From an uncultured Bacteroidales bacterium (GTDB taxonomy: Bacteria; Bacteroidota; Bacteroidia; Bacteroidales; F082), in NCBI GenBank assembly GCA_900315175.1, contig OMYA01000007.1, forward strand, positions 124,001-188,000: a DNA stretch of 64,000 nucleotides, written 5' to 3'. Every line of letters starts with the position of its first letter. Position 1 is the stretch's first letter. Under the pieces are notes generated by a model. That model had not been told where the DNA came from and did no database searches. It was given only the letters and a program-made list of their open reading frames with translations. Shown in pieces: positions 43,131 through 56,698 of the stretch. Position numbers and translations under genes: made by a program.

Positions 43131-44447
43131 ATGAAAAAATTTTTATTGTCATTTTTCGCTTTCACCGCTTTACTTTCTTTTTCCTTAACGGAAGATTTAA
43201 AAGCTGCTGAAAACGACACTATCCCTACTGAAAATCAAAAGGTTACAAAATCAAGGCTGACAATCGGAGGCTACGGTGAGGCTGTTTACACTCGCACTTT
43301 TTACAGTGATAACATGTTTCGTTATTCGCATCCCGACCGTTATAAAGACGCTCCGGGTTATGGTAGAGTCGACCTGCCTCATGTGGTCATCTTTTTAGGC
43401 TATGACTTCGGTCATGGCTGGACGATGGGCAGCGAGATAGAGTTTGAGCATGGCGGCAATGAGGTCGCGGTGGAGATTGAGGCGGAGGAGACTGGCGAGT
43501 TTGAACATGAGATTGAGCGTGGCGGCGAGGTCGCCCTCGAGCAGTTCTGGATTCAGAAGTCTTTCTCTAAAGCATTGAATATCAGGATGGGACACATTAT
43601 CGTGCCGGTAGGTCAGACCAACAACGCGCATCTCCCGACGGAGTTTTTCACATGTTATCGTCCTGAGGGCGAGTTCACCATCATGCCTAATACATGGCAT
43701 GAGACGGGTGTCAGCATCTGGGGCAGAATCGGAAAATGGCGTTATGAAGCCGTCGTGGTGCCGGGCTTGAATTCCAACATGTTCAACAATGCCAACTGGG
43801 TGAAAAACGGCTCAGCCTCGGCATACGAGTTCAAGGTGGCGAACAAACTCGCAGGCGCCTTACGCATTGACAACTACTCGATTAAGAACCTGCACATCGG
43901 CGTGAGCGGCTACATCGGCAACTCGTTCAACAACGACCTCGTGACCAACGAAGCCGACAAATATAAAGATGTGAAAGGCACTGTGCTCATAGGCACTGCC
44001 GAGTTCGACTACAAAGCCAACGGCATTATTATAAGAGGTAACTTCGACTACGGTCATCTCAACGATGCCGATATCATCTCGGCTTACAACAAAAACCAGA
44101 ACCATCAGAGTTTCTCGCCTTATCCGCGCTCACTCGTCGGAGAGGAAGCGGTGGCAATAGGCGGTGAGGTAGGCTACGACATCTTCCATGGCATGAAGCG
44201 GACCGGCGAACGCCAGCTCTTCGTCTTCGGCAGATACGACTACTACGACAGCTATATCCATTATGCCTCGGCAATCACCATGTACGACTGGACAGAACGT
44301 CATGTGATGACCCTGGGCCTGAACTATTATCCTATCAAGCAGGTCGTGATAAAAGCCGAGTTTTCCGAAAGATTCCTGAAAGCACAGTATAACAACGAGC
44401 CGATGGTTTCGGTGGGAGTGGCTTACAGCGGATTCTTTGTGAGGTGA
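43131..44447 (+). CDS. Outer-membrane porin of an iron-type locus
   Basis: A 438-residue secreted barrel. The signal peptide ends near DLKAAE. LTIGGYGEAVYTRTFYS leads into strands, with GGNEVAVEIEAEETGEFEHEIE as an acidic loop that could attract cations. GHIIVPVGQTNNAHLPTEF and NTWHETGVSIWGRIGKWRYE are prominent, and it ends YSGFFVR. It sits 96 nt before an imelysin gene and a di-haem oxidoreductase, an arrangement seen in iron uptake loci. Porin function is from fold; iron is from context. Confidence 0.7.
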   Translation: MKKFLLSFFAFTALLSFSLTEDLKAAENDTIPTENQKVTKSRLTIGGYGEAVYTRTFYSDNMFRYSHPDRYKDAPGYGRVDLPHVVIFLGYDFGHGWTMGSEIEFEHGGNEVAVEIEAEETGEFEHEIERGGEVALEQFWIQKSFSKALNIRMGHIIVPVGQTNNAHLPTEFFTCYRPEGEFTIMPNTWHETGVSIWGRIGKWRYEAVVVPGLNSNMFNNANWVKNGSASAYEFKVANKLAGALRIDNYSIKNLHIGVSGYIGNSFNNDLVTNEADKYKDVKGTVLIGTAEFDYKANGIIIRGNFDYGHLNDADIISAYNKNQNHQSFSPYPRSLVGEEAVAIGGEVGYDIFHGMKRTGERQLFVFGRYDYYDSYIHYASAITMYDWTERHVMTLGLNYYPIKQVVIKAEFSERFLKAQYNNEPMVSVGVAYSGFFVR

Positions 44448-44454
44448 TAGCGCC

Positions 44455-44490
44455 GCCCTTAACGCCCTTAAGGCCCTTAAAGCCATTAAA
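44455..44490. repeat. Nonamer array GCCCTTAAN x4
   Basis: GCCCTTAAC, GCCCTTAAG, GCCCTTAAA and GCCATTAAA lie in the porin-imelysin gap, starting just after the porin stop. It is a period-9 member of the short arrays in this window. Confidence 0.8.
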
Positions 44491-44543
44491 GCCGCGCACC
44501 GGACAATCAATTTGATTATTAACAAATTATAAATTATATTATC

Positions 44544-45713
44544 ATGAAAAAATTTTTTAAAACCACATTGCTGATAGCATTTTCAGCATTGTTCGCAATG
44601 AGCTTCAACTCATGCAAAAAGAGTAAATCAGATCCAGAACCTGCAACAGACACCAACGCTGTCAAGACGGCTATCATCAGCCAGTTTCTTGACCACACTG
44701 TGAGTCCGACCTACACCAAGCTTGCGAGCTACACCGACCAGCTTGTCGACAACCTTAAGACATTGAAAGCCGGCATGACCCAGGCTAATGTCAACACGGC
44801 ATGTGTCACTTTCCTCGAGGCCCGCAAATGGTGGGAGATGAGCGAGGCGTTTCTCTTTGGTGCCGCTTCCGACTTCGGCATCGACCCGCATATCGACTCA
44901 TGGCCGCTTGACGAGGACGCTTTCAACAACCTCATGGCAAGTCCAAGTATGATTGCCGCTTTGGATACTGAAGACGGTGACGTCATCGCTGGCGAGCAGC
45001 TCGGCAACGCCCTCCTGGGATTCCATGGCATTGAATACGTGCTCTTCCGTGACGGCCAGCCAAGAAACGTCGCCGACCTCACCAACGACGACATGATTTA
45101 TGCTGTGGCGGTGGCTGGCGACCTTCGCAACCGCTGCTTCCAGCTGGAGGTGAGCTGGCTTGGCGATGCCGCTCCTGCATCACACGTCGCTTTGATGGAA
45201 GAACTCGAGTTCAACACCACTGTCAACGGCGGCGACTTCAGCTATAGCGAGAACATGCAGAACGCCGGCAAGGCTGGAAGCACCTATGTGACACTCACCC
45301 AGGCTCTCCAAGCCATCCTCGACGGCAGCATCGACATCTCCGACGAGGTCGGCACATCAAAGATCGGCAAACCGCACACCGGCGAAGACCCTACATACGT
45401 CGAATCGCCTTACAGCCAGAAGTCAATCATCGATTTCTACGACAACATCACCTCTATCAAAAACTCATACATGGGAGGCAACGAAGGCGAACGTGATGAG
45501 AACAAGTCGATGCACGCATACGTCAGCAACATCAACGCTGATTTGGATGCCAGAATCGTGGCGGCTATCGACAACGCTCTCGCGAAAATCAATCACATGG
45601 CGGCTCCTTTCGTGAACCACTACACAGACCCGAGTGCCGGCGAGGCTATGGAGGCCTGCCAAGAGTTGTCGGATGTGCTCGACGAAGCAAAAAACGCCAT
45701 CAAAGACATCTGA
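44544..45713 (+). CDS. Imelysin family lipoprotein
   Basis: A 389-residue protein with lipobox FNSC (Cys near 27). The imelysin domain shows FLEARKWWEMSEAFLFG, then IDPHIDSWPLD, and the GxHxxE motif as LGFHGIEYVLFRDG near residue 160. The family includes IrpA and EfeO/EfeM relatives and works in iron uptake; the GxHxxE residues are thought to bind metal rather than cut peptide. It is followed 35 nt later by a di-haem oxidoreductase, the classic IrpA partner. Confidence 0.92.
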   Translation: MKKFFKTTLLIAFSALFAMSFNSCKKSKSDPEPATDTNAVKTAIISQFLDHTVSPTYTKLASYTDQLVDNLKTLKAGMTQANVNTACVTFLEARKWWEMSEAFLFGAASDFGIDPHIDSWPLDEDAFNNLMASPSMIAALDTEDGDVIAGEQLGNALLGFHGIEYVLFRDGQPRNVADLTNDDMIYAVAVAGDLRNRCFQLEVSWLGDAAPASHVALMEELEFNTTVNGGDFSYSENMQNAGKAGSTYVTLTQALQAILDGSIDISDEVGTSKIGKPHTGEDPTYVESPYSQKSIIDFYDNITSIKNSYMGGNEGERDENKSMHAYVSNINADLDARIVAAIDNALAKINHMAAPFVNHYTDPSAGEAMEACQELSDVLDEAKNAIKDI

Positions 45714-45748
45714 TTATAAAAGAAACACATTTCTAAACTAATTATAAT

Positions 45749-47374
45749 ATGTTTAAACTCAATCACTTAACACTTTTTGCTGCAGCTGGATTGTTGGCGT
45801 TTGGGGTTGTTTCCTGTAAGAAGGAAAACAAGTCGAGCACTCCTACGCCGGAGCCACCTGCACCTGCTGTTGTGGAGGGCACTTATGCCGGCGGTGAGTT
45901 GGGCACCACGTTCAACAACACTCAGTCGGCTTACGAAGACCCCACTCCTGCCACTGTGCAAGCCGGAATGACGGCACAGTTCAAGTACGGTGAGTATTTC
46001 TTCGAGCGCACCTACACACAGAACAACGAGCCGTTTAACGGTTTGGGACCTCTTTACATCCGCAGCTCGTGCATCGCCTGTCATCCGGGCTATGGTCACG
46101 GGATGCGCATGAACCGCTACCGCGCCGACGACTGGGGCAACGGTTATCTGCTGGTGTTCACCGACAGAAACGACACCTACCTCAGCTCGTACACAGGCAT
46201 GCCTCAGACCAAGGCCGTCGCGCCTTTCAAGGCTCCTCTCGACGAGACGAAGATCCAGATTACCTGGCTCGATTACACCGATGAGTGGGGCAACCGTTTC
46301 GATGATGGTGAGACGTACAGCCTCACCTATCCGGAGGTTTACATCCCTGAGGATGCCTTCTATGTGCCTCTCGAAGTGGGTGGCAACCCTATTCCTTACA
46401 GCGATTTCGTGTGTCGTCTTGAGTCGACCATCGGCATCTACGGCACCGGCCTGATCGACGCTATCCCTGATGACTCGTTGAAGGCTCAGTATCAGAAGGA
46501 GTTCAACGACGGTTACATGCAGAACGGCATCAACCCTGCGATGTGGGCCGGCAACGACTGGGCTCCGACAGGCTTGTACGGCAACACCAACCACCCGAAG
46601 CGTTACACTTACGCTCTCACACGTGGTCCGCTGCAGGACGCTCCAGGTGCCAACGCCATCTGGAACATCACCAATGTGACGCACCGCACCAAGATGGGAC
46701 ATTACATGACAGGTGCCTACGCCTTGAAAGCCTCAAAAGACCCTGACGTCCAGGCGGAGTTCTACAGCTATTTCCCGCAGTATAACCTTACCGGTAATGT
46801 GGAGAACGACATCTACAACTACCTCATGATGAACGATCAGATTCCTGATTCGATGAAGGTTCCTGAGATGAAAGACGAGGACTACGTCAACTTCATGGTG
46901 TGGCATCGTGGCTTGGCTGTCCCGGCAGCCCGCAACCTCGATGACCCTGAGGTGCAGCGTGGTCGTGAGCTCTTCACCAGCTTAGGCTGTGCCTACTGCC
47001 ACCGTCCTTCGTGGGAGACAGGCGACGACATCTTCACCGACCCGGCAGGTTTCTTTGAGACTGCCGACGCACGTCTGCCGCGTTATCCTCACCAGAAGAT
47101 ATGGCCTTACAGCGACTACATCCAGCATAAGCTCCACATGGAGAACGACATACGCACAGGATGGTGCCGCACCACGCCTCTCTGGGGTCGCGGACTCTCG
47201 GCGATATGCACGGGCTCAAGCGACAGACTGCATGACTGCCGTGCACAGACCGTAATCGAGGCCATCATGTGGCACGGTAACATACAGAGCGATGCACGAC
47301 GCACAGTGGAGAAATTCCGCGAGCTGTCGAAAGCCGACAGAGACGCCGTCGTGAAATTTATTGAAGCGATTTAA
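45749..47374 (+). CDS. Di-haem oxidoreductase (DUF1111/COG3488) lipoprotein
   Basis: A 541-residue exported protein with lipobox VVSC. Two c-type haem motifs are present: CIACH near residue 108 and CAYCH near 414. TTPLWGRGLSAICTGSSDRLHDC is the usual C-terminal signature (LHDG in most members, here LHDC), and VIEAIMWHG gives a distal His. The family (COG3488) travels with imelysin and is named a thiol oxidoreductase or cytochrome c peroxidase relative. A ferric or ferrous redox role is inferred. CcsBA, needed to attach its haems, is next in line. Confidence 0.9.
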   Translation: MFKLNHLTLFAAAGLLAFGVVSCKKENKSSTPTPEPPAPAVVEGTYAGGELGTTFNNTQSAYEDPTPATVQAGMTAQFKYGEYFFERTYTQNNEPFNGLGPLYIRSSCIACHPGYGHGMRMNRYRADDWGNGYLLVFTDRNDTYLSSYTGMPQTKAVAPFKAPLDETKIQITWLDYTDEWGNRFDDGETYSLTYPEVYIPEDAFYVPLEVGGNPIPYSDFVCRLESTIGIYGTGLIDAIPDDSLKAQYQKEFNDGYMQNGINPAMWAGNDWAPTGLYGNTNHPKRYTYALTRGPLQDAPGANAIWNITNVTHRTKMGHYMTGAYALKASKDPDVQAEFYSYFPQYNLTGNVENDIYNYLMMNDQIPDSMKVPEMKDEDYVNFMVWHRGLAVPAARNLDDPEVQRGRELFTSLGCAYCHRPSWETGDDIFTDPAGFFETADARLPRYPHQKIWPYSDYIQHKLHMENDIRTGWCRTTPLWGRGLSAICTGSSDRLHDCRAQTVIEAIMWHGNIQSDARRTVEKFRELSKADRDAVVKFIEAI

Positions 47375-47461: not shown

Positions 47462-49510
47462 ATGAAAAACAACAAAACATCCTTGACAATCTGGATTTTA
47501 ACCATTATCGTATTGACTATCAGCACATTAGTAAAAACACCGTTTTACGACAAATGGTGGTTTGTGGCACTTCTTTTCGTGTTCGCAGCAATGTTTCTTA
47601 TCAACATTTTTAAAGAAAAAATCTGGAAAAATCCAGCGGTCTTCGGTGTTCACGTCTCTGTCCTGCTGATACTTCTCGGCGGCTTACTGACATTCACCAC
47701 AAGCCAAAACGGAAACGTACATCTTACTGAAAATGAGCCTGTTAACACCTTTTCAGTCGGTGAAAACCAAGTCCAAATGCCATTTTATGTAAACCTGAAA
47801 AAATTTGATGTTGTCTACTATCCAGGCACCATGTCGCATGCCGATTACGTGTCGTATGTGGAGCTTTCCGACAACGGCAGCATCCTCAAAGAAGATATTA
47901 TTTCGATGAATAACATCATGAAATACAACAGCTTCCGTTTCTTCAATGAAGACTTCGACGAAGACCTGAAAGGCTGCACCCTCACCGTACAGCACGACCC
48001 CTGGGGCATACTTGTCACCTATATCGGGTATGTTTTATTCATAATCTCCATGCTTGTCATTTTTGTTAAAAAAATAACGAAAAAATCGATGTCGAATCCG
48101 ATGAAAGGCTTATCTATCTTATTGATAATGATGACGATGGGCTCTGTCGCCAATGCTGGTGAGCTGAGGACTTTACCCAAAGACGTGGCTGCTGAGTTGG
48201 GTGACATCTACATCTACAACAGCGGCAGAATCGCCCCGATGCAGACTTTCGCGAAGGATTTCGCCTGCAAGCTGTACGGCAAACCTACTTACCAAGGCTA
48301 CACCTCGGAGCAGGTCCTCGCCGGCTGGATGTTCTACCCTGCATATTGGAAAGGCACCGAGCGTCAGAAGAGTAAGCGCGACGAGATAAAACATCTGGTG
48401 GAATCGTTCCAGACGGGTGCGATGACGAAGATTTTCCCTTGCCAGATGCCCGACGGCACCGTGAAATGGTTCAGTCCCAACGACGACCTTCCGGAAAACT
48501 TGAGCGAAGACGAATGGGTCTTTATCAGAAAATCAACGAGTTACCTCAACGAGCTCGTTGTCAGGCAAGACTATGCGGCATTTGCCGAGACACTTCAAAA
48601 AATCAAAGTCTACCAAAAGAAAAACGCTGTCGCCGCCGATGGAACCACTTCGTTACCATCGGATTTCCGCTTTAAAACAGAAAAGATTTACAACGTTTGG
48701 TCAAAATACAATTATGTGGCATATTTCTCGCTGTTTTTCGGAATAGTGTTTTTCGTGCTATATTGTGTTTTCACCGCTATAGGGAGACAAACTACCAAAA
48801 CGCTTTCAAGCATCACATTATCAATAAATTGGATTATCTTTGCCTTTTTGACATTTTTGATAATCTTGCGTTGGATTGTGGCAGGACACATCCCGTTGGC
48901 GAGAAGTGCCGAGACGCAGCATTTCATGGCGTGGGTGTCGCTGCTCATCGCGGGTGTCATGGCGTTGAAGCGAAACGGCAGGGTCAACACCGTCGCCACC
49001 GGCTTGATTGTCAGCGGCTTGATGATGCTTGTCTCGGTGATGAGCTCAGCGAACCCGAAAATCACTCCTTTGATGCCGGTGCTCTCGTCGCCGTTGCTCG
49101 GACTGCATGTCGCAATCATCATGGTAGCATACGCCTTGCTCGCCTTCATGTTAATCAACGGGTTGGCGGCAGTGATTGTGAGAATCTGCAACAAAGACTC
49201 GCAGCTTGAAATCGAGCGCATGGCGGAGGTGTCGCGCGGCATGCTATTCCCTGCGGTGATGTGCCTCGCCTTCGGCATCATCATAGGCTCAGTGTGGGCA
49301 AACATCTCTTGGGGGAACTACTGGGCTTGGGACCCGAAAGAGACATGGTCGCTGATAACACTGATGATTTATGCCACTGCACTGTTCAAAGACATGGCTC
49401 CAGGCTTGCAGAAGCCTCTTAACTTCCACATTTTCAATATCTTGGCATTCTTAAGCGTCCTCATGACCTACTTCGGCGTAAATCTTCTTGGCGGGATGCA
49501 CGCATATTGA
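47462..49510 (+). CDS. Cytochrome c maturation protein CcsBA (ResB-CcsA fusion)
   Basis: A 682-residue membrane protein. The N-terminal third has ResB/Ccs1 features: three helices, then an exported domain with HLTENEPVNTFSVGENQV. A long soluble loop (about 230-400) follows. The C-terminal third is CcsA with the haem-handling WGNYWAWDPKETWSLITLM (WWD-type motif) and flanking helices with His. System II machines carry haem outward and link it to CxxCH. Directly behind a two-CxxCH protein, it probably serves as that protein's maturase. Its stop abuts the riboswitch promoter. Confidence 0.88.
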   Translation: MKNNKTSLTIWILTIIVLTISTLVKTPFYDKWWFVALLFVFAAMFLINIFKEKIWKNPAVFGVHVSVLLILLGGLLTFTTSQNGNVHLTENEPVNTFSVGENQVQMPFYVNLKKFDVVYYPGTMSHADYVSYVELSDNGSILKEDIISMNNIMKYNSFRFFNEDFDEDLKGCTLTVQHDPWGILVTYIGYVLFIISMLVIFVKKITKKSMSNPMKGLSILLIMMTMGSVANAGELRTLPKDVAAELGDIYIYNSGRIAPMQTFAKDFACKLYGKPTYQGYTSEQVLAGWMFYPAYWKGTERQKSKRDEIKHLVESFQTGAMTKIFPCQMPDGTVKWFSPNDDLPENLSEDEWVFIRKSTSYLNELVVRQDYAAFAETLQKIKVYQKKNAVAADGTTSLPSDFRFKTEKIYNVWSKYNYVAYFSLFFGIVFFVLYCVFTAIGRQTTKTLSSITLSINWIIFAFLTFLIILRWIVAGHIPLARSAETQHFMAWVSLLIAGVMALKRNGRVNTVATGLIVSGLMMLVSVMSSANPKITPLMPVLSSPLLGLHVAIIMVAYALLAFMLINGLAAVIVRICNKDSQLEIERMAEVSRGMLFPAVMCLAFGIIIGSVWANISWGNYWAWDPKETWSLITLMIYATALFKDMAPGLQKPLNFHIFNILAFLSVLMTYFGVNLLGGMHAY

Positions 49511-49521
49511 TAAATTTTTTG

Positions 49522-49529
49522 TACCTTTG
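49522..49529 (+). promoter_or_regulatory. -7 box for the riboswitch transcript
   Basis: TACCTTTG followed by CAG, 12 nt after the ccsBA stop. Transcription would begin right at the 5' edge of the cobalamin aptamer. Confidence 0.65.
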
Positions 49530-49530
49530 C

Positions 49531-49675
49531 AGCCGCTTTGGAAAAGGGAATGCCGTGAAAATCGGCAACAGTACCCGCTGCTGTATGCCCGACGTAACGG
49601 TCTGTCAATCAAGCCACTGTCGAGAGATGGGAAGGCGACAGACTCGGGCGAGTCAGAAGACCTTGCCAGGCGACA
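49531..49675 (+). promoter_or_regulatory. Cobalamin (AdoCbl-type) riboswitch
   Basis: Conserved cobalamin-aptamer blocks occur in order: AAAAGGGAATGCCGTGAAAA, CGGCAACAGTACCCGCTGCTG, GCCACTGTCGAG, GGGAAGGCGACA and GAGTCAGAAGACCTTGCC. GTCTGTC (49600-49606) pairs with GACAGAC (49637-49643) as the arm around GCCACTG. The distance to the ATG (49712) is about 37 nt, which suits control of translation initiation. When cobalamin is bound, expression downstream should fall. Confidence 0.88.
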
Positions 49676-49711
49676 TAGTTAAATTTATTTCGGGATTAAA
49701 ATTAAATTGTC

Positions 49712-52700
49712 ATGAAAAAGTGTTTCTTATTAACACTGTCGCTTCTGTTTGCGACAGTCGTAAATGCCCAATTGTCGGGCACTTACACCATCAGCAGTAA
49801 TTCTTCCTCAAACCCGGACTTCACGTCGTTGAGCGCTGCAGCAACGGCCTTGGAAGCTGGCGTGTCGGGACAGGTGATTTTCGAAATAGCACCTGGCACG
49901 TATGAGGAATACGTCACCATCAACGAGATTAGCGGGACATCGGCAACAAACCGCGTCATCTTCAGAGGCATGGGAGGCGACAACCAACAAGTGGTTATCA
50001 CCAGCAACGCAGGGTACACCGACAACAGCACCATCAAACTCAACGGCACCGACTACATCACCTTTGAGAATATGACGGTGACAACGACATCGGCAAACAA
50101 AGCCAGATTATTGGTGGTTAACGGTCAGACCGACTACAACCATTTCAACAACATGCGTTTTGTGGGTGCGGTCTCAAACAACAGCCTCGACGGCGACAAG
50201 AACCTCGTTTATTACACCAGTGGCGAATGGGTCTGCCACGACAACGAGTTCGTGGGATGCCACTTCGAAAACGGCTACATAGCCCTTTATTATCAAGGTA
50301 AAAACATTTACACACTCAACGACGGAGTGTTGGTCGAAAACTGCACCTTCCTTAACCAGTCGTTCAAAGGGATATACATCAGTTTCACCGACCATGCGAT
50401 AATACGCGGCAACACCGTCACCAACCACACACACGATGTTTTGGGCAATTATCATGCCATGGATATGTTGCGTATCCGCAACGGCAGCATCATCGAAAAC
50501 AACGTGATGAACGTGACGAGAAACTCCAACTACGCCACCGTTTTTGAGACACGTCCGGCGATGGGAACCGAGACAGAGCCTGTCATCATCAGAAACAACA
50601 TCGTCAATCTGGTGAGCAACGTCAACACTTCGTGGTGCTGCGAGCTGGACGACACCAACAGCAGCTATGTCTACTTTGTGAATAACACCGTGAAGTGCTC
50701 AGGCAGCGGCAACTGCGGACTGATGTATGTCGACAAAAGCTGGTCTAACTTATTCATGTACAACAATTTGTTTGTCAACGAGACGGCGGGCTACGTCTTC
50801 CGTTTCCAACAGAACGCCACCGGCCGTCATTGCGACTACAACCGCATCCAGTTTGCCGGCAGCAATGTCGGACGCTTCACCAGCACCGACTGCGCCACTT
50901 TGGCGGACTGGACTGCAGCCACAGGCTTTGACGCACATTCGGCACTTTGCGCACCTAACTTTGTGGGAACCAACGACTTACATATCACCGATGCCACTGG
51001 GTTGACTGTCGCCAACCCGCTTTCATACGTGACAACAGATATCGACGGACAGACACGGTCGGCGACGGCGCCTTGCGCCGGCGCCGACGAACTGGCAAGC
51101 GGTGCTAACTTGCCTCCTGTCGTCGCCAACCCTGTTTCAAACATCGTTTTCGAATCATATCCGGCAAGCCAGACCGTCGACCTGACAAACACCTTCAACG
51201 ACCCCGACGACCCGAACACCGGCATCGTGATAACTGTGACATCGAACAGCAACCCTTCGCTTGTCTCTACAACTCTCAACAACCGCAATCTGACGGTGAC
51301 ACGTCTCGTGGCAACCAGCGGGATAGCCACCATCACTTTGAATGCCGAGAGCGCCGGACAGTCGGTGCAGACAAGCTTCACGGTGGAGTGCCTCGCCGAA
51401 GACCTCCCTCCTGTCGTCGCCAACCCATTGGATCCTATCAACTTCACCGAATATCCGCAGACATTTAATTTCGACCTAAGCAATGTTTTCGATGACCCTG
51501 ACAACAACAACGAGTTCATCGAAATCACAGTGCAGAGCTGCCCTTCAGAAATCACCGCCACAATCGATTGGAGCGACGTACTGTGGGTGACAAGAACCTC
51601 TTCCGACGCATTCACCAACAAGACTTTGGTGATTCGTGCCACCAGCAACGGCAAATATGTCGACATGAACGTCAGCGTTTCGGGTAACGACGTGACAGTG
51701 ACAGTAGGCACAGCCACTTTCGATGATGTGACATTAGGCGCCAACGGCTACTGGCAAGGTGAGTCGGGCGACAACGAGATGTTCAGCGGCGGCTGGTTCT
51801 TCACCAACTATTACATGCCCGAATACTCATTCTGGGGTGGCTTCACAGCCTCGAATCATACCGATATGTCACAGTCGGGATTGAATGCACAATATACAGC
51901 AGCCACCGGTGCCGGCTACGATGGCTCGACACAATACGGAGTGGCTTATTGCATGGGCGTACAGTGCGATGTATATGCCTCAGACGGCACCGCACATACC
52001 GTGACAGGATGTTATGTCACCAACAACCTCTGGGCATACCAGAACATGCACGACGGCGACGCCACAGCGACAGCTTTCGGCGGCCCTACAGGCAACGACC
52101 CTGACTGGTTCAAACTCACCGCGACAGGTAAAAACGCCAGCGGTCAGACAGTAGGCACAGCCGAGTTTTACTTGGCTGACTATCGTTTTGAAAACAACGA
52201 CGACGACTATATCCTGAACACCTGGGAATGGTTCGACCTCAGCACTCTCGGCGCCGTCCACACCATCTCTTTCAGCCTCTCTTCATCGAAAAACAACAGC
52301 GGCGGCATGATCACACCGGCTTATTTCTGCATCGAGAACTTCAACGGGACGGCTCCTACACCTCCACAAGACCTGCCACCTTACGTGGTAAATCCTGTCG
52401 AAGATGTCGTTTTCAACGAATATCCGGAAACAATAGCTGTAAATCTTGACGGTGTGGTTACCGATGACGATGACTCGGATGAGAACATTACCTACAGCAT
52501 TGTGTCCAATTCAAATGCCGATGAGCTCGAGGCTCACATGAACGGCAAAATGCTGAATCTTACTCGTGTCTCGAGGGAAGAATCCACAGCACATCTCGTT
52601 TTGCGTGCCACCAGCGACGGTCAATACGTTGATTTTGAGATCAATGTCATTATGCATCTCGTGCCGGATGGCATCGAAGAAAATGACGCTGCCGCAATTT

Positions 52701-52912
52701 CAGTGTACCCGAATCCTGCCACAGATTACGTTATCGTAGAGACGTGCCATGGTGCGTCTGTACAATGCGTTGAAATATATGACATTACAGGTCATAAGGT
52801 TCTGTCATCAACCAGCACCGAAATCAATATAAGTGAATTGCCGCAAGGCGTTTATTTTGTTGCAGTTTTCACAGAGAATCAGAAATTTGTTGAAAGAATC
52901 GTAATAAAATAA
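49712..52912 (+). CDS. T9SS-exported beta-helix protein with DUF4465 domain
   Basis: 1066 residues. Signal peptide MKKCFLLTLSLLFATVVNAQ. About 25-460 is a right-handed beta-helix (Asn ladders such as VLVENCTFLNQSFKGIYI). Ig/cadherin-like repeats lie at about 467-565, 565-662 and 888-985, each opening PPxVxNPxxxxxFxEYP. At about 665-880 is a DUF4465 domain (FDDVTLGANGYWQG, GNDPDWFKLTATG, TAEFYLADYRF). A T9SS type A sorting domain closes it (VYPNPATDYVIV to FVERIVIK). The cobalamin riboswitch precedes it. From memory, DUF4465 proteins recur in Bacteroidetes B12 loci, so a surface corrinoid-handling role is inferred. Confidence 0.85.
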   Translation: MKKCFLLTLSLLFATVVNAQLSGTYTISSNSSSNPDFTSLSAAATALEAGVSGQVIFEIAPGTYEEYVTINEISGTSATNRVIFRGMGGDNQQVVITSNAGYTDNSTIKLNGTDYITFENMTVTTTSANKARLLVVNGQTDYNHFNNMRFVGAVSNNSLDGDKNLVYYTSGEWVCHDNEFVGCHFENGYIALYYQGKNIYTLNDGVLVENCTFLNQSFKGIYISFTDHAIIRGNTVTNHTHDVLGNYHAMDMLRIRNGSIIENNVMNVTRNSNYATVFETRPAMGTETEPVIIRNNIVNLVSNVNTSWCCELDDTNSSYVYFVNNTVKCSGSGNCGLMYVDKSWSNLFMYNNLFVNETAGYVFRFQQNATGRHCDYNRIQFAGSNVGRFTSTDCATLADWTAATGFDAHSALCAPNFVGTNDLHITDATGLTVANPLSYVTTDIDGQTRSATAPCAGADELASGANLPPVVANPVSNIVFESYPASQTVDLTNTFNDPDDPNTGIVITVTSNSNPSLVSTTLNNRNLTVTRLVATSGIATITLNAESAGQSVQTSFTVECLAEDLPPVVANPLDPINFTEYPQTFNFDLSNVFDDPDNNNEFIEITVQSCPSEITATIDWSDVLWVTRTSSDAFTNKTLVIRATSNGKYVDMNVSVSGNDVTVTVGTATFDDVTLGANGYWQGESGDNEMFSGGWFFTNYYMPEYSFWGGFTASNHTDMSQSGLNAQYTAATGAGYDGSTQYGVAYCMGVQCDVYASDGTAHTVTGCYVTNNLWAYQNMHDGDATATAFGGPTGNDPDWFKLTATGKNASGQTVGTAEFYLADYRFENNDDDYILNTWEWFDLSTLGAVHTISFSLSSSKNNSGGMITPAYFCIENFNGTAPTPPQDLPPYVVNPVEDVVFNEYPETIAVNLDGVVTDDDDSDENITYSIVSNSNADELEAHMNGKMLNLTRVSREESTAHLVLRATSDGQYVDFEINVIMHLVPDGIEENDAAAISVYPNPATDYVIVETCHGASVQCVEIYDITGHKVLSSTSTEINISELPQGVYFVAVFTENQKFVERIVIK
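52736..52763. repeat. GTAGAGACG palindrome inside the T9SS sorting domain
   Basis: GTAGAGACGTGCCAT and GGTGCGTCTGTAC form a near-perfect palindrome and are translated as VETCHGASVQC within the sorting domain. Related palindromes are intergenic at 35343-35371 and 47401-47430. Confidence 0.75.
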
Positions 52913-52930
52913 TCCACAATCATTTATATC

Positions 52931-54250
52931 ATGAGAAAGCAATATCAAGCAGTTACGGCGGCTGAGGCTGTAAAAGTGATAAAATCGGGCGACCATGTGC
53001 ATATCAGTTCGGTGTCGAGTGTGCCACAATGTCTGGTGAAAGCCTTATGCGACCGTGGTCGTGCCGGTGAGTTGAAAAACGTTTACATTCACCATCTTCA
53101 TACCGAAGGGGCGGCGCCATACGTCAACCCGGAGTTTGAGGGTATCTTTCAGCATAACGCCTTCTTCGTCGGCGCCAACGTCCGCGAGAGCGTGCAGAAA
53201 GGTCTGGCAGACTACATCCCGGTGTTCCTCGGAGAGACATCGAAACTCTACCGTGAGAAATATATAAGATGCAACGTGGCAATGATTCAGGTGTGTCCGC
53301 CGGACAGATTCGGCTACGTTTCATTAGGCTCATCTGTCGACGCCACCTTGGCAGCCATGGAGAATGCCGAGTTCGTCATCGCGGTGGTCAACAAGCACGT
53401 GCCGCGTACCTTTGGCGACGCCTTGGTACATATCAGCCGTATCAACGTCTTTGTCGAAGACGACACCCCGTTGCTCACCGTCGATATGCCTGAGCCGAAT
53501 CAGGTGGAGAAGACCATCGGCCGTTATTGCGCTGAGCTCATCGAAGACGGCGCCTGCCTCCAGATGGGTATAGGCTCAATACCTAACGCCATCTTATCGT
53601 GCCTCCACAACCATAAAAACCTCGGCATTCACACAGAGATGTTTTCGGATGGCATCCTCCCGCTGGTGAAAAAAGGCGTCATCACCGGTGACAACAAAAG
53701 GTTGGACAAGGGCAAGATTGTCTCCACCTTTGTGATGGGTTCGAAGAAGATTTATGACTTCATCGACGGCAACCACGAGGTGTTGTTGAAGGACGTGGAA
53801 TACACCAACGACCCGTTCATCATCGCCCAGCAGCCTAAGATGACATCCATCAACTCGGCGATACAGATCGACCTCTCGGGTCAGGTGTGTGCCGACTCGC
53901 TCGGCGAGCGCATCTATTCCGGCGTGGGCGGTCAGATCGACTATGTCTACGGCTCGTCGCGCGCTGAGGGCGGCAAGGCTATCATCGCGATGCCTTCCAC
54001 GACAAAAAAAGGCATCAACAAGATTGTGCCGGCTTTGGATCTGGGCTCGGGCGCTGTCACCACGCGTAACCACATCCACTGGTTTATCACGGAATACGGT
54101 GCGGTGAACCTCTACGGTCGCTCGCTGCAGGAACGCGCCAAACTCATCATCTCGGTGGCTCATCCGAAGTATCAGGCGGAGCTCGACGAGGCGGCATTCA
54201 AGAGATTCGGCCCTCATTATCATTATATTTGCAGAAATAATTTGATTTAA
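52931..54250 (+). CDS. Acetyl-CoA hydrolase/CoA-transferase (4-hydroxybutyrate type)
   Basis: A 439-residue class I CoA-transferase. SGDHVHISSVSSVPQCLVKAL opens the first domain. LGIHTEMFSDGILPLVKKG holds the catalytic Glu that forms the glutamyl-CoA intermediate. YSGVGGQIDYVYGSSRAEGGKAI is the family's C-terminal signature. Family members move CoA among acetate, propionate, butyrate, succinate or 4-hydroxybutyrate; the partner acid is not decidable here. It starts 18 nt after the DUF4465 gene with no visible promoter, so it is probably on the riboswitch-controlled transcript. Confidence 0.92.
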   Translation: MRKQYQAVTAAEAVKVIKSGDHVHISSVSSVPQCLVKALCDRGRAGELKNVYIHHLHTEGAAPYVNPEFEGIFQHNAFFVGANVRESVQKGLADYIPVFLGETSKLYREKYIRCNVAMIQVCPPDRFGYVSLGSSVDATLAAMENAEFVIAVVNKHVPRTFGDALVHISRINVFVEDDTPLLTVDMPEPNQVEKTIGRYCAELIEDGACLQMGIGSIPNAILSCLHNHKNLGIHTEMFSDGILPLVKKGVITGDNKRLDKGKIVSTFVMGSKKIYDFIDGNHEVLLKDVEYTNDPFIIAQQPKMTSINSAIQIDLSGQVCADSLGERIYSGVGGQIDYVYGSSRAEGGKAIIAMPSTTKKGINKIVPALDLGSGAVTTRNHIHWFITEYGAVNLYGRSLQERAKLIISVAHPKYQAELDEAAFKRFGPHYHYICRNNLI

Positions 54251-56195: not shown

Positions 56196-56698
56196 CTACA
56201 GATTACCGTTAATCGGAATCATCATCTTGAAGACGATATTTCGTCCCATGTTGTATATTCCGGCATATTTCAGGCGGCTGAGGTGGTCCTGATAGCTTAC
56301 ATCGAACAGGTTGTCGGCTATCATCATCAGCTCAGCCACTTTTTTGCCATGACGAAGCACGTCGGTGCCTATCGAGAGTCCGAAAAGGGTGTACGACGGT
56401 GTCATCGTCTCGGTTTCGTATGCCGCATAATAATGGTCTTGTTCAAGATACCAGTCGAGCCGGGCTGCCGTGCGATGGCGTCGATGATGTTCGTCCCCGA
56501 CTTATGACGCAGCTCGACGAGGCTAATGATGGTGATAGGCATCGACGACTCCTTCATCTTCATGTCGCCGACGGCACCTGTCACAGTGACTTCTTTCAAT
56601 TCAAGATGCCTGAAGAAAATATCGGTAGAGTCAGGCAAACTCTGGGCTGCCGCCGACATACCAATAGCCAGCGACAACAATAAAAACAATTGTTTCAT
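56196..56698 (-). pseudogene. TonB-dependent receptor, collapsed by internal deletion
   Basis: Two pieces of one receptor in different frames. The 5' piece (56402-56698) has signal peptide MKQLFLLLSLAIGMSAAAQ and a plug start (LELKEVTVTGAVGDMKMKES, PITIISLVELRHKSGTNIID). The 3' piece (56196-56405) has the barrel end (MMIADNLFDVSYQDHLSRLK, YNMGRNIVFKMMIP). Most of the plug and about 18 strands are gone. A promoter (TACTTTTG, complement of 56809-56816) and an approximately 110-nt leader remain. The substrate is unknown. Confidence 0.8.

Follow-up and report, generated by a model that had tools for sequence, protein, structure and literature searches.

A cobalamin riboswitch ahead of a T9SS-tailed DUF4465 protein with a predicted stalk: a probable B12-capture operon in an uncultured Bacteroidales bacterium

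In the 64,000 nucleotides analysed here (hereafter the window; contig OMYA01000007.1, positions 124,001 to 188,000, from an uncultured Bacteroidales bacterium), a cobalamin riboswitch is followed by a gene for a 1066-residue protein (49712-52912) and a gene for a 4-hydroxybutyrate coenzyme A (CoA)-transferase (52931-54250), all on the forward (+) strand. The large protein runs from a signal peptide to a sorting tail of the type IX secretion system (T9SS) and carries a DUF4465 domain. We read the arrangement as a B12-starvation operon for a T9SS-exported surface B12-capture protein and the CoA-transferase, with a probability of about 0.7. The riboswitch, the domains, the T9SS tail along with the export machinery of the host and a conserved linkage of riboswitch and DUF4465 were all computed here. 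A B12 role for this protein had been proposed in an earlier, sequence-only reading; the riboswitch, the B12-binding nature of DUF4465 and the linkage in 69 of 74 loci each support it, while nothing speaks for the processing of corrinoids that had been suggested as well.

The riboswitch and its linkage to DUF4465

The Rfam model RF00174 matches 49511-49683 with 81.1 bits (gathering score 31.5, E = 2.1e-18) over 189 of 189 model positions, and the cobalamin riboswitch previously recognised in the leader is thus recovered by a covariance model. An alignment of 14 leaders yields the expected aptamer fold with a short P1 and contains 12 base pairs that are changed on both sides. The match ends 28 nt before the ATG of the 1066-residue protein, not 37 nt as had been estimated. 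On its 5′ side it is preceded by a ResB/CcsA-type gene (47462-49510), whose stop codon ends one base 5′ of the match. The sequence TACCTTTG (49522-49529) conforms to the Bacteroidota-type -7 element TAnnTTTG, and would function as a promoter; most of the 30 riboswitches that were compared have TAnnTTTG in the same position. Since the element overlaps the 5′ border of the region matched by Rfam, transcription probably starts within the Rfam outline.

The association of riboswitch and DUF4465 was scanned with a covariance model made from 20 local aptamers in those 74 of 79 loci that offered enough upstream sequence. A cobalamin riboswitch is located 5′ of DUF4465 in 69 of these 74, on the same strand within 700 nt in 54 cases and at about 1-2 kb in 15, with none in the remaining 5; Planctomycetota and Deltaproteobacteria are represented among the riboswitch-linked loci. 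In sister genera (L062-L064; L numbers denote loci) a single run comprises the riboswitch, the DUF4465-T9SS gene, sometimes a partner protein, a TonB-type receptor and a lipoprotein-like gene, the latter two being recognised by size and leader and not by family scan. At L054:4212-9311, tandem DUF4465-T9SS genes (634 and 1060 aa) lie behind one riboswitch with a long aptamer insert. Of 173 genomes searched in the host's family, 75 contain DUF4465, in 3 of 16 genera. Among relatives with a name, uncultured rumen Bacteroidales come closest, for example RUG11952 (97% domain identity) and bacterium F082, which is Candidatus Alcium according to NCBI.

In corrinoid riboswitches, pairing between the loops L5 and L13 stabilises the paired element P13 (PMC10653944). 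In the window, loop L5 (TACCCG, 49572-49577) is the proposed kissing-loop partner of CGGG (49691-49694), the putative L13 of a hairpin at 49682-49708 in which AATTTA (49682-49687) would pair with TAAATT (49703-49708) as P13. The 3′ arm of this proposed hairpin stops 3 nt 5′ of the ATG, a position that fits a translational shut-off. A complement to the L5 core is present 24-29 nt 3′ of AGACCT in 28 of the 30 riboswitches, compared with 4.8 expected in shuffles; the L5 pattern behind this count was made by hand and the 30 riboswitches are related to each other, so that they do not represent 30 independent events. Furthermore, L5 and its complement vary jointly in copies with CGCG and CCAG.

DUF4465, stalk and sorting tail

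The DUF4465 domain spans residues 668-878 (51713-52345) as judged from Pfam, sequence and Foldseek matches. PF14717 covers residues 704-877 with 179.3 bits (cut-off 25 bits, E = 1.2e-52), in agreement with the assignment made before. BtuJ1 (9qpm/9fct) matches the domain by sequence with an E value of ~1e-26, and a Foldseek search with the AlphaFold2 model returned 9hmu and BtuJ1 as top matches (template modelling score ~0.7 by target length); the domain is clearly related. Through publications of 2025-2026, DUF4465 has ceased to be a domain of unknown function. Two lipoproteins of Bacteroides thetaiotaomicron, BtuJ1 and BtuJ2, are encoded in operons under riboswitch control and bind cobalamin, with a dissociation constant of ~0.15 nM for BtuJ1; crystal structures are available for both (PMC12751083). 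Six further DUF4465 proteins bind B12, and the set reaches down to 16% identity (PMC13398666). The Thr-Pro-x-Tyr signature of the HI-loop is kept in the predicted pocket loop MITPAYF (866-872), in that Thr242, Pro243 and Tyr245 of BtuJ1 correspond to Thr868, Pro869 and Tyr871 with Ala870 in between. Tyr871 is conserved in 64 of 67 relatives and TPAYF in all 21 proteins first compared; Trp78 of BtuJ1 corresponds to Tyr705.

Residues 1-19 (49712-49768), read by eye, constitute a Sec-type signal peptide ending at a Q-rule site (VVNA/QLSG, Gln following the cleavage point) and lacking a lipobox. Residues ~20-410 (49769-50941) are modelled as a regular ladder of short strands with a predicted local distance difference test score (pLDDT) of mostly 80-92. 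This agrees with the right-handed beta-helix proposed earlier, and Pfam Beta_helix is matched in 3 of 67 relatives; in the window protein itself the Pfam scan left this region unmatched and found DUF4465 and the T9SS tail only, with neither TonB receptor nor DUF5074 propeller domains. Two immunoglobulin (Ig)/cadherin-like modules at residues 466-560 (51107-51391; PPVVANP at 468) and 565-658 (51404-51685; PPVVANP at 566) were recognised by model, structure search and motif, and a third one behind DUF4465 at residues 889-981 (52376-52654; PPYVVNP at 889) by model and motif. The PPxVxNP motif is present exactly three times, as had been counted, and each copy opens an Ig-like module in the model. 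The model was derived from 26 sequences and has a mean pLDDT of 74.6; with a predicted template modelling score of 0.45, the placement of the modules relative to each other is unreliable.

The T9SS type A C-terminal sorting domain occupies residues 998-1065 (52703-52906; PF18962, Por_Secre_tail, E = 1.5e-14), TIGR04183 also scoring above cut-off; the 1066-residue open reading frame with DUF4465 and a T9SS tail, as previously described, is confirmed. The host genome encodes the export machinery (SprA_N, 565 bits) and yields 85 T9SS tail matches at E ≤ 0.001. Among the relatives 46 of 67 carry a T9SS tail and 6 of 67 a PEP-CTERM. DUF4465 proteins with PEP-CTERM or dockerin-like ends were seen in Planctomycetota and others (L097, L104, L122, L134, L100, L107), so that each phylum seems to equip this B12 domain with a surface sorting tag of its own. 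We take IPR026444 to be the T9SS sorting domain and IPR013424 to be the PEP-CTERM sorting tail. The BtuJ publication lists 229 of 824 DUF4465 members with IPR026444 and 88 with IPR013424 (PMC12751083). It follows that the combination of DUF4465 with a T9SS tail is not new and that, with binding and tail counts already published, a DUF4465 protein that is exported by the T9SS and captures B12 belongs to a known kind. The earlier claim of a different architecture is accordingly narrowed: the novelty is smaller than supposed, but in the literature as far as its text was accessible no description of the beta-helix/Ig stalk, its operon or its regulon was found. Literature searches, confined largely to openly available papers, gave nothing relevant on T9SS in conjunction with cobalamin riboswitches or B12 scavenging. 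Binding domain, tail and control have thus all been seen before; what appears to be new is the beta-helix/Ig stalk and the sharing of an operon with a gene of fermentation.

The CoA-transferase and further members of the regulon

The gene for the 439-residue CoA-transferase begins 19 nt 3′ of the DUF4465 gene, with which it is probably co-transcribed. Its product matches CoA-transferase models and comes closest to 4-hydroxybutyrate CoA-transferases (PDB 2oas, E = 2e-127; 3eh7). It directly follows DUF4465 in the close clade. Elsewhere a cobalamin riboswitch of its own is situated 49-233 nt upstream in 11 of 13 other tested loci, and on these comparative grounds the CoA-transferase is a B12-regulon gene, a status missed by the sequence-only reading. 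For Tannerella, 4-hydroxybutyryl-CoA dehydratase has been described as preceded by a cobalamin riboswitch (PMC7160235). At L010:11870-17864 a riboswitch in which L5 and L13 both read CGCG is followed by genes for an HpaB-type protein, a CoA-transferase, an iron alcohol dehydrogenase and an acylating aldehyde dehydrogenase, a run that we read as a B12-independent 4-hydroxybutyrate pathway. From pathway knowledge, the CoA-transferase in the window would aid butyrate formation that bypasses methylmalonyl-CoA mutase, a B12-dependent enzyme; the genome does contain a ~711-aa frame with a B12-binding domain.

The genome, which was searched family by family, contains five cobalamin riboswitches. Downstream of them lie four proteins of T9SS type, a BtuB-BtuG-like pair and these 4-hydroxybutyrate genes. 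Of the genomes sampled, most from the genus carry three to five such riboswitches and most from the family's other genera a single one. The BtuB-like receptor (TIGR01779, E = 7.6e-29, below the curated cut-off) and a DUF5074 propeller protein stand under their own riboswitch. A 386-aa T9SS protein with two stretches of DUF4430 (L007:11903-13063, minus strand) lies directly under a cobalamin riboswitch, DUF4430 being the C-terminal domain of vertebrate transcobalamins (PMC4350170). It is followed by a riboswitch-controlled T9SS protein of 332 aa (L007:10908-11906, minus strand; contig C16, ~220.9-221.9 kb) from an unnamed family with the motifs DFAVFENGF, FVEVSSDG, GTPFDL and GFDLDAVGV. This family matched no Pfam family, and a fold search gave only beta-rich matches of low template modelling score. 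At many loci in different phyla its relatives (L062-L064, L110, L112, L127, L130, L135, L136, L142) are neighbours of DUF4465, and in L142 and several Planctomycetota the two are fused; the family is likely to be a partner in B12 uptake. Another riboswitch-controlled protein, of fibronectin type and 1507 aa, ends in a weak T9SS-like match that scores slightly below the cut-off of the model. When two riboswitch-controlled T9SS proteins other than that of the window were searched by sequence against the PDB, the matches were essentially T9SS tails only.

A BtuC-type permease is present in the genome, CbiC was not found there, and the host probably cannot make B12. In the window, tblastn with the genome's own BtuB-like protein gave no match, consistent with the earlier statement that btuB is absent. 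The only receptor sequence found in the window is a TonB-receptor pseudogene (56211-56698, minus strand), which retains approximately 80 N-terminal and 95 C-terminal residues of a 696-aa receptor whose middle is missing; intact copies occur in L065 and L050/L078, and it was not called BtuB because no riboswitch was found beside the intact L065 copy. Upstream of the operon, a row of genes at 43131-47371 encodes a porin-like protein, an imelysin (M75) and a di-haem oxidoreductase and is possibly iron-related.

It is conceivable, though we would put it somewhat below even odds, that several surface proteins delivered by the T9SS, namely the DUF4465 stalk, the double-DUF4430/transcobalamin-type protein and the partner family, form an external B12-catching layer within one B12-scarcity regulon of the clade, and that riboswitches of this class also activate the B12-independent 4-hydroxybutyrate route to butyrate, so that B12 supply would switch both scavenging and fermentation products.

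Proposed function, alternatives and known systems

Under scarcity of cobamide the leader would be open and the large protein translated, exported by Sec and carried across the outer membrane by the T9SS, which would recognise the type A tail; the protein would then stay on the cell surface. There the beta-helix and the Ig-like modules would hold out the BtuJ-type DUF4465 domain, which would bind cobamide and could hand it over to the BtuB-BtuG-like pair, whose genes lie on a different contig. At the same time a B12-independent route to butyrate would be raised by the CoA-transferase, which is probably co-transcribed. When cobamide is plentiful, the aptamer would be occupied, L5 and L13 would pair, P13 would close next to the start codon and translation would stop.

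Several observations weigh against this proposal. The P13 of the window consists of A-T pairs only, is weak alone and did not appear in the minimum-energy fold in the energy test; the richer P13 hairpins of other riboswitches reach -3.9 to -6.5 kcal/mol with z-scores that are not significant, so that the case for P13 and L13 is one of position and covariation only. Two of the four side-chain contacts common to BtuJ1 and BtuJ2 are replaced (Asn241 by Ile867, Tyr146 by Trp774), Tyr97 of BtuJ1 has become Leu724, and the binding loops of the AlphaFold2 model have a pLDDT below 50. A sizeable minority of genomes of the genus, some of them incomplete, gave no DUF4465 match, and DUF4465 is hence not essential. 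Nevertheless, with Thr, Pro and Tyr of the pocket kept and other contacts replaced, the window protein likely binds B12, judging from its sequence, while affinity and cobamide preference may differ. The exchange of Asn241 and Tyr146 for Ile or Leu and Trp in the clade could also indicate that its DUF4465 binds a different cobamide or another ligand instead of cobalamin itself. The linkage to the riboswitch and the eight proteins that bind B12 down to 16% identity (PMC13398666) make this distinctly unlikely. The Asn241 equivalent is Asn in 42 of 67 relatives; the Asn241 and Tyr146 contacts are not universal in the family and hence not strictly defining.

The protein might also be shed as a cobalophore, released into the medium or onto outer-membrane vesicles in the manner of a siderophore, as has been proposed for BtuJ1/BtuJ2 vesicles, and not fixed as a stalk. 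No BtuB-like gene is present in the window, and in B. thetaiotaomicron vesicles serve the BtuJ proteins in delivering B12 (PMC12751083). A stalk of several modules, however, makes most sense on an attached protein. Type A T9SS cargo, too, is usually surface-attached, and shedding therefore appears rather unlikely, if still a serious contender. Binding or cleavage of polysaccharide is common among right-handed beta-helices, this part of the protein is well conserved in the clade and a phage tailspike is among the Foldseek matches, so that the protein could be an adhesin or a glycan-binding or -cleaving protein in which DUF4465 is secondary and B12 control reports the nutritional state. Strictly invariant columns, on the other hand, cluster in DUF4465 and the tail and not in the beta-helix, and 616-aa relatives without a beta-helix keep DUF4465, T9SS tail and riboswitch; we regard this option as slightly more doubtful even than a change of ligand. 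It is highly improbable that the riboswitch mainly serves the CoA-transferase with the DUF4465 protein as a passenger: the CoA-transferase does have its own riboswitch in 11 relatives, but so does DUF4465 in many of them and in further phyla as well.

In the communities of gut and rumen, B12 is a vitamin that microbes compete for. A surface-held B12-capture protein controlled as proposed here would place a BtuJ-type domain on a long T9SS-delivered stalk in an uncultured rumen group, with a single riboswitch linking capture to a gene of fermentation. If this is true, the ratio of propionate, whose production is B12-dependent, to butyrate in the rumen could change with the supply of B12. The unnamed family beside DUF4465 in several phyla is singled out as a likely new part of B12 uptake, and the significance of these findings would rise if the regulon view were proven.

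The closest known counterparts, BtuJ1 and BtuJ2, share the homologous DUF4465 (IPR027828), the TPxY loop, cobalamin-riboswitch operons and a proposed extracellular location, but they are small lipoproteins in btu operons, whereas the window encodes a 1066-residue T9SS protein with a beta-helix/Ig stalk away from btuB. The DUF4465-IPR026444 proteins likewise combine DUF4465 with a C-terminal extracellular targeting tail; the accessible part of the publication gives them as a count, without description of the beta-helix/Ig form or the CoA-transferase operon (PMC12751083). BtuB-BtuG, the surface complex that probably takes the next step in uptake and of which a similar riboswitch-controlled pair exists in this genome, has domains unrelated to those of the window protein, which contains neither (PMC10404256). 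BtuH2 of B. thetaiotaomicron, also from a B12 locus, appears to work alike in that N-terminal Ig-like PKD modules hold a B12-binding domain (PMC8941943), yet it has a different binding domain and a lipoprotein anchor in place of a T9SS tail and is not a member of the family.

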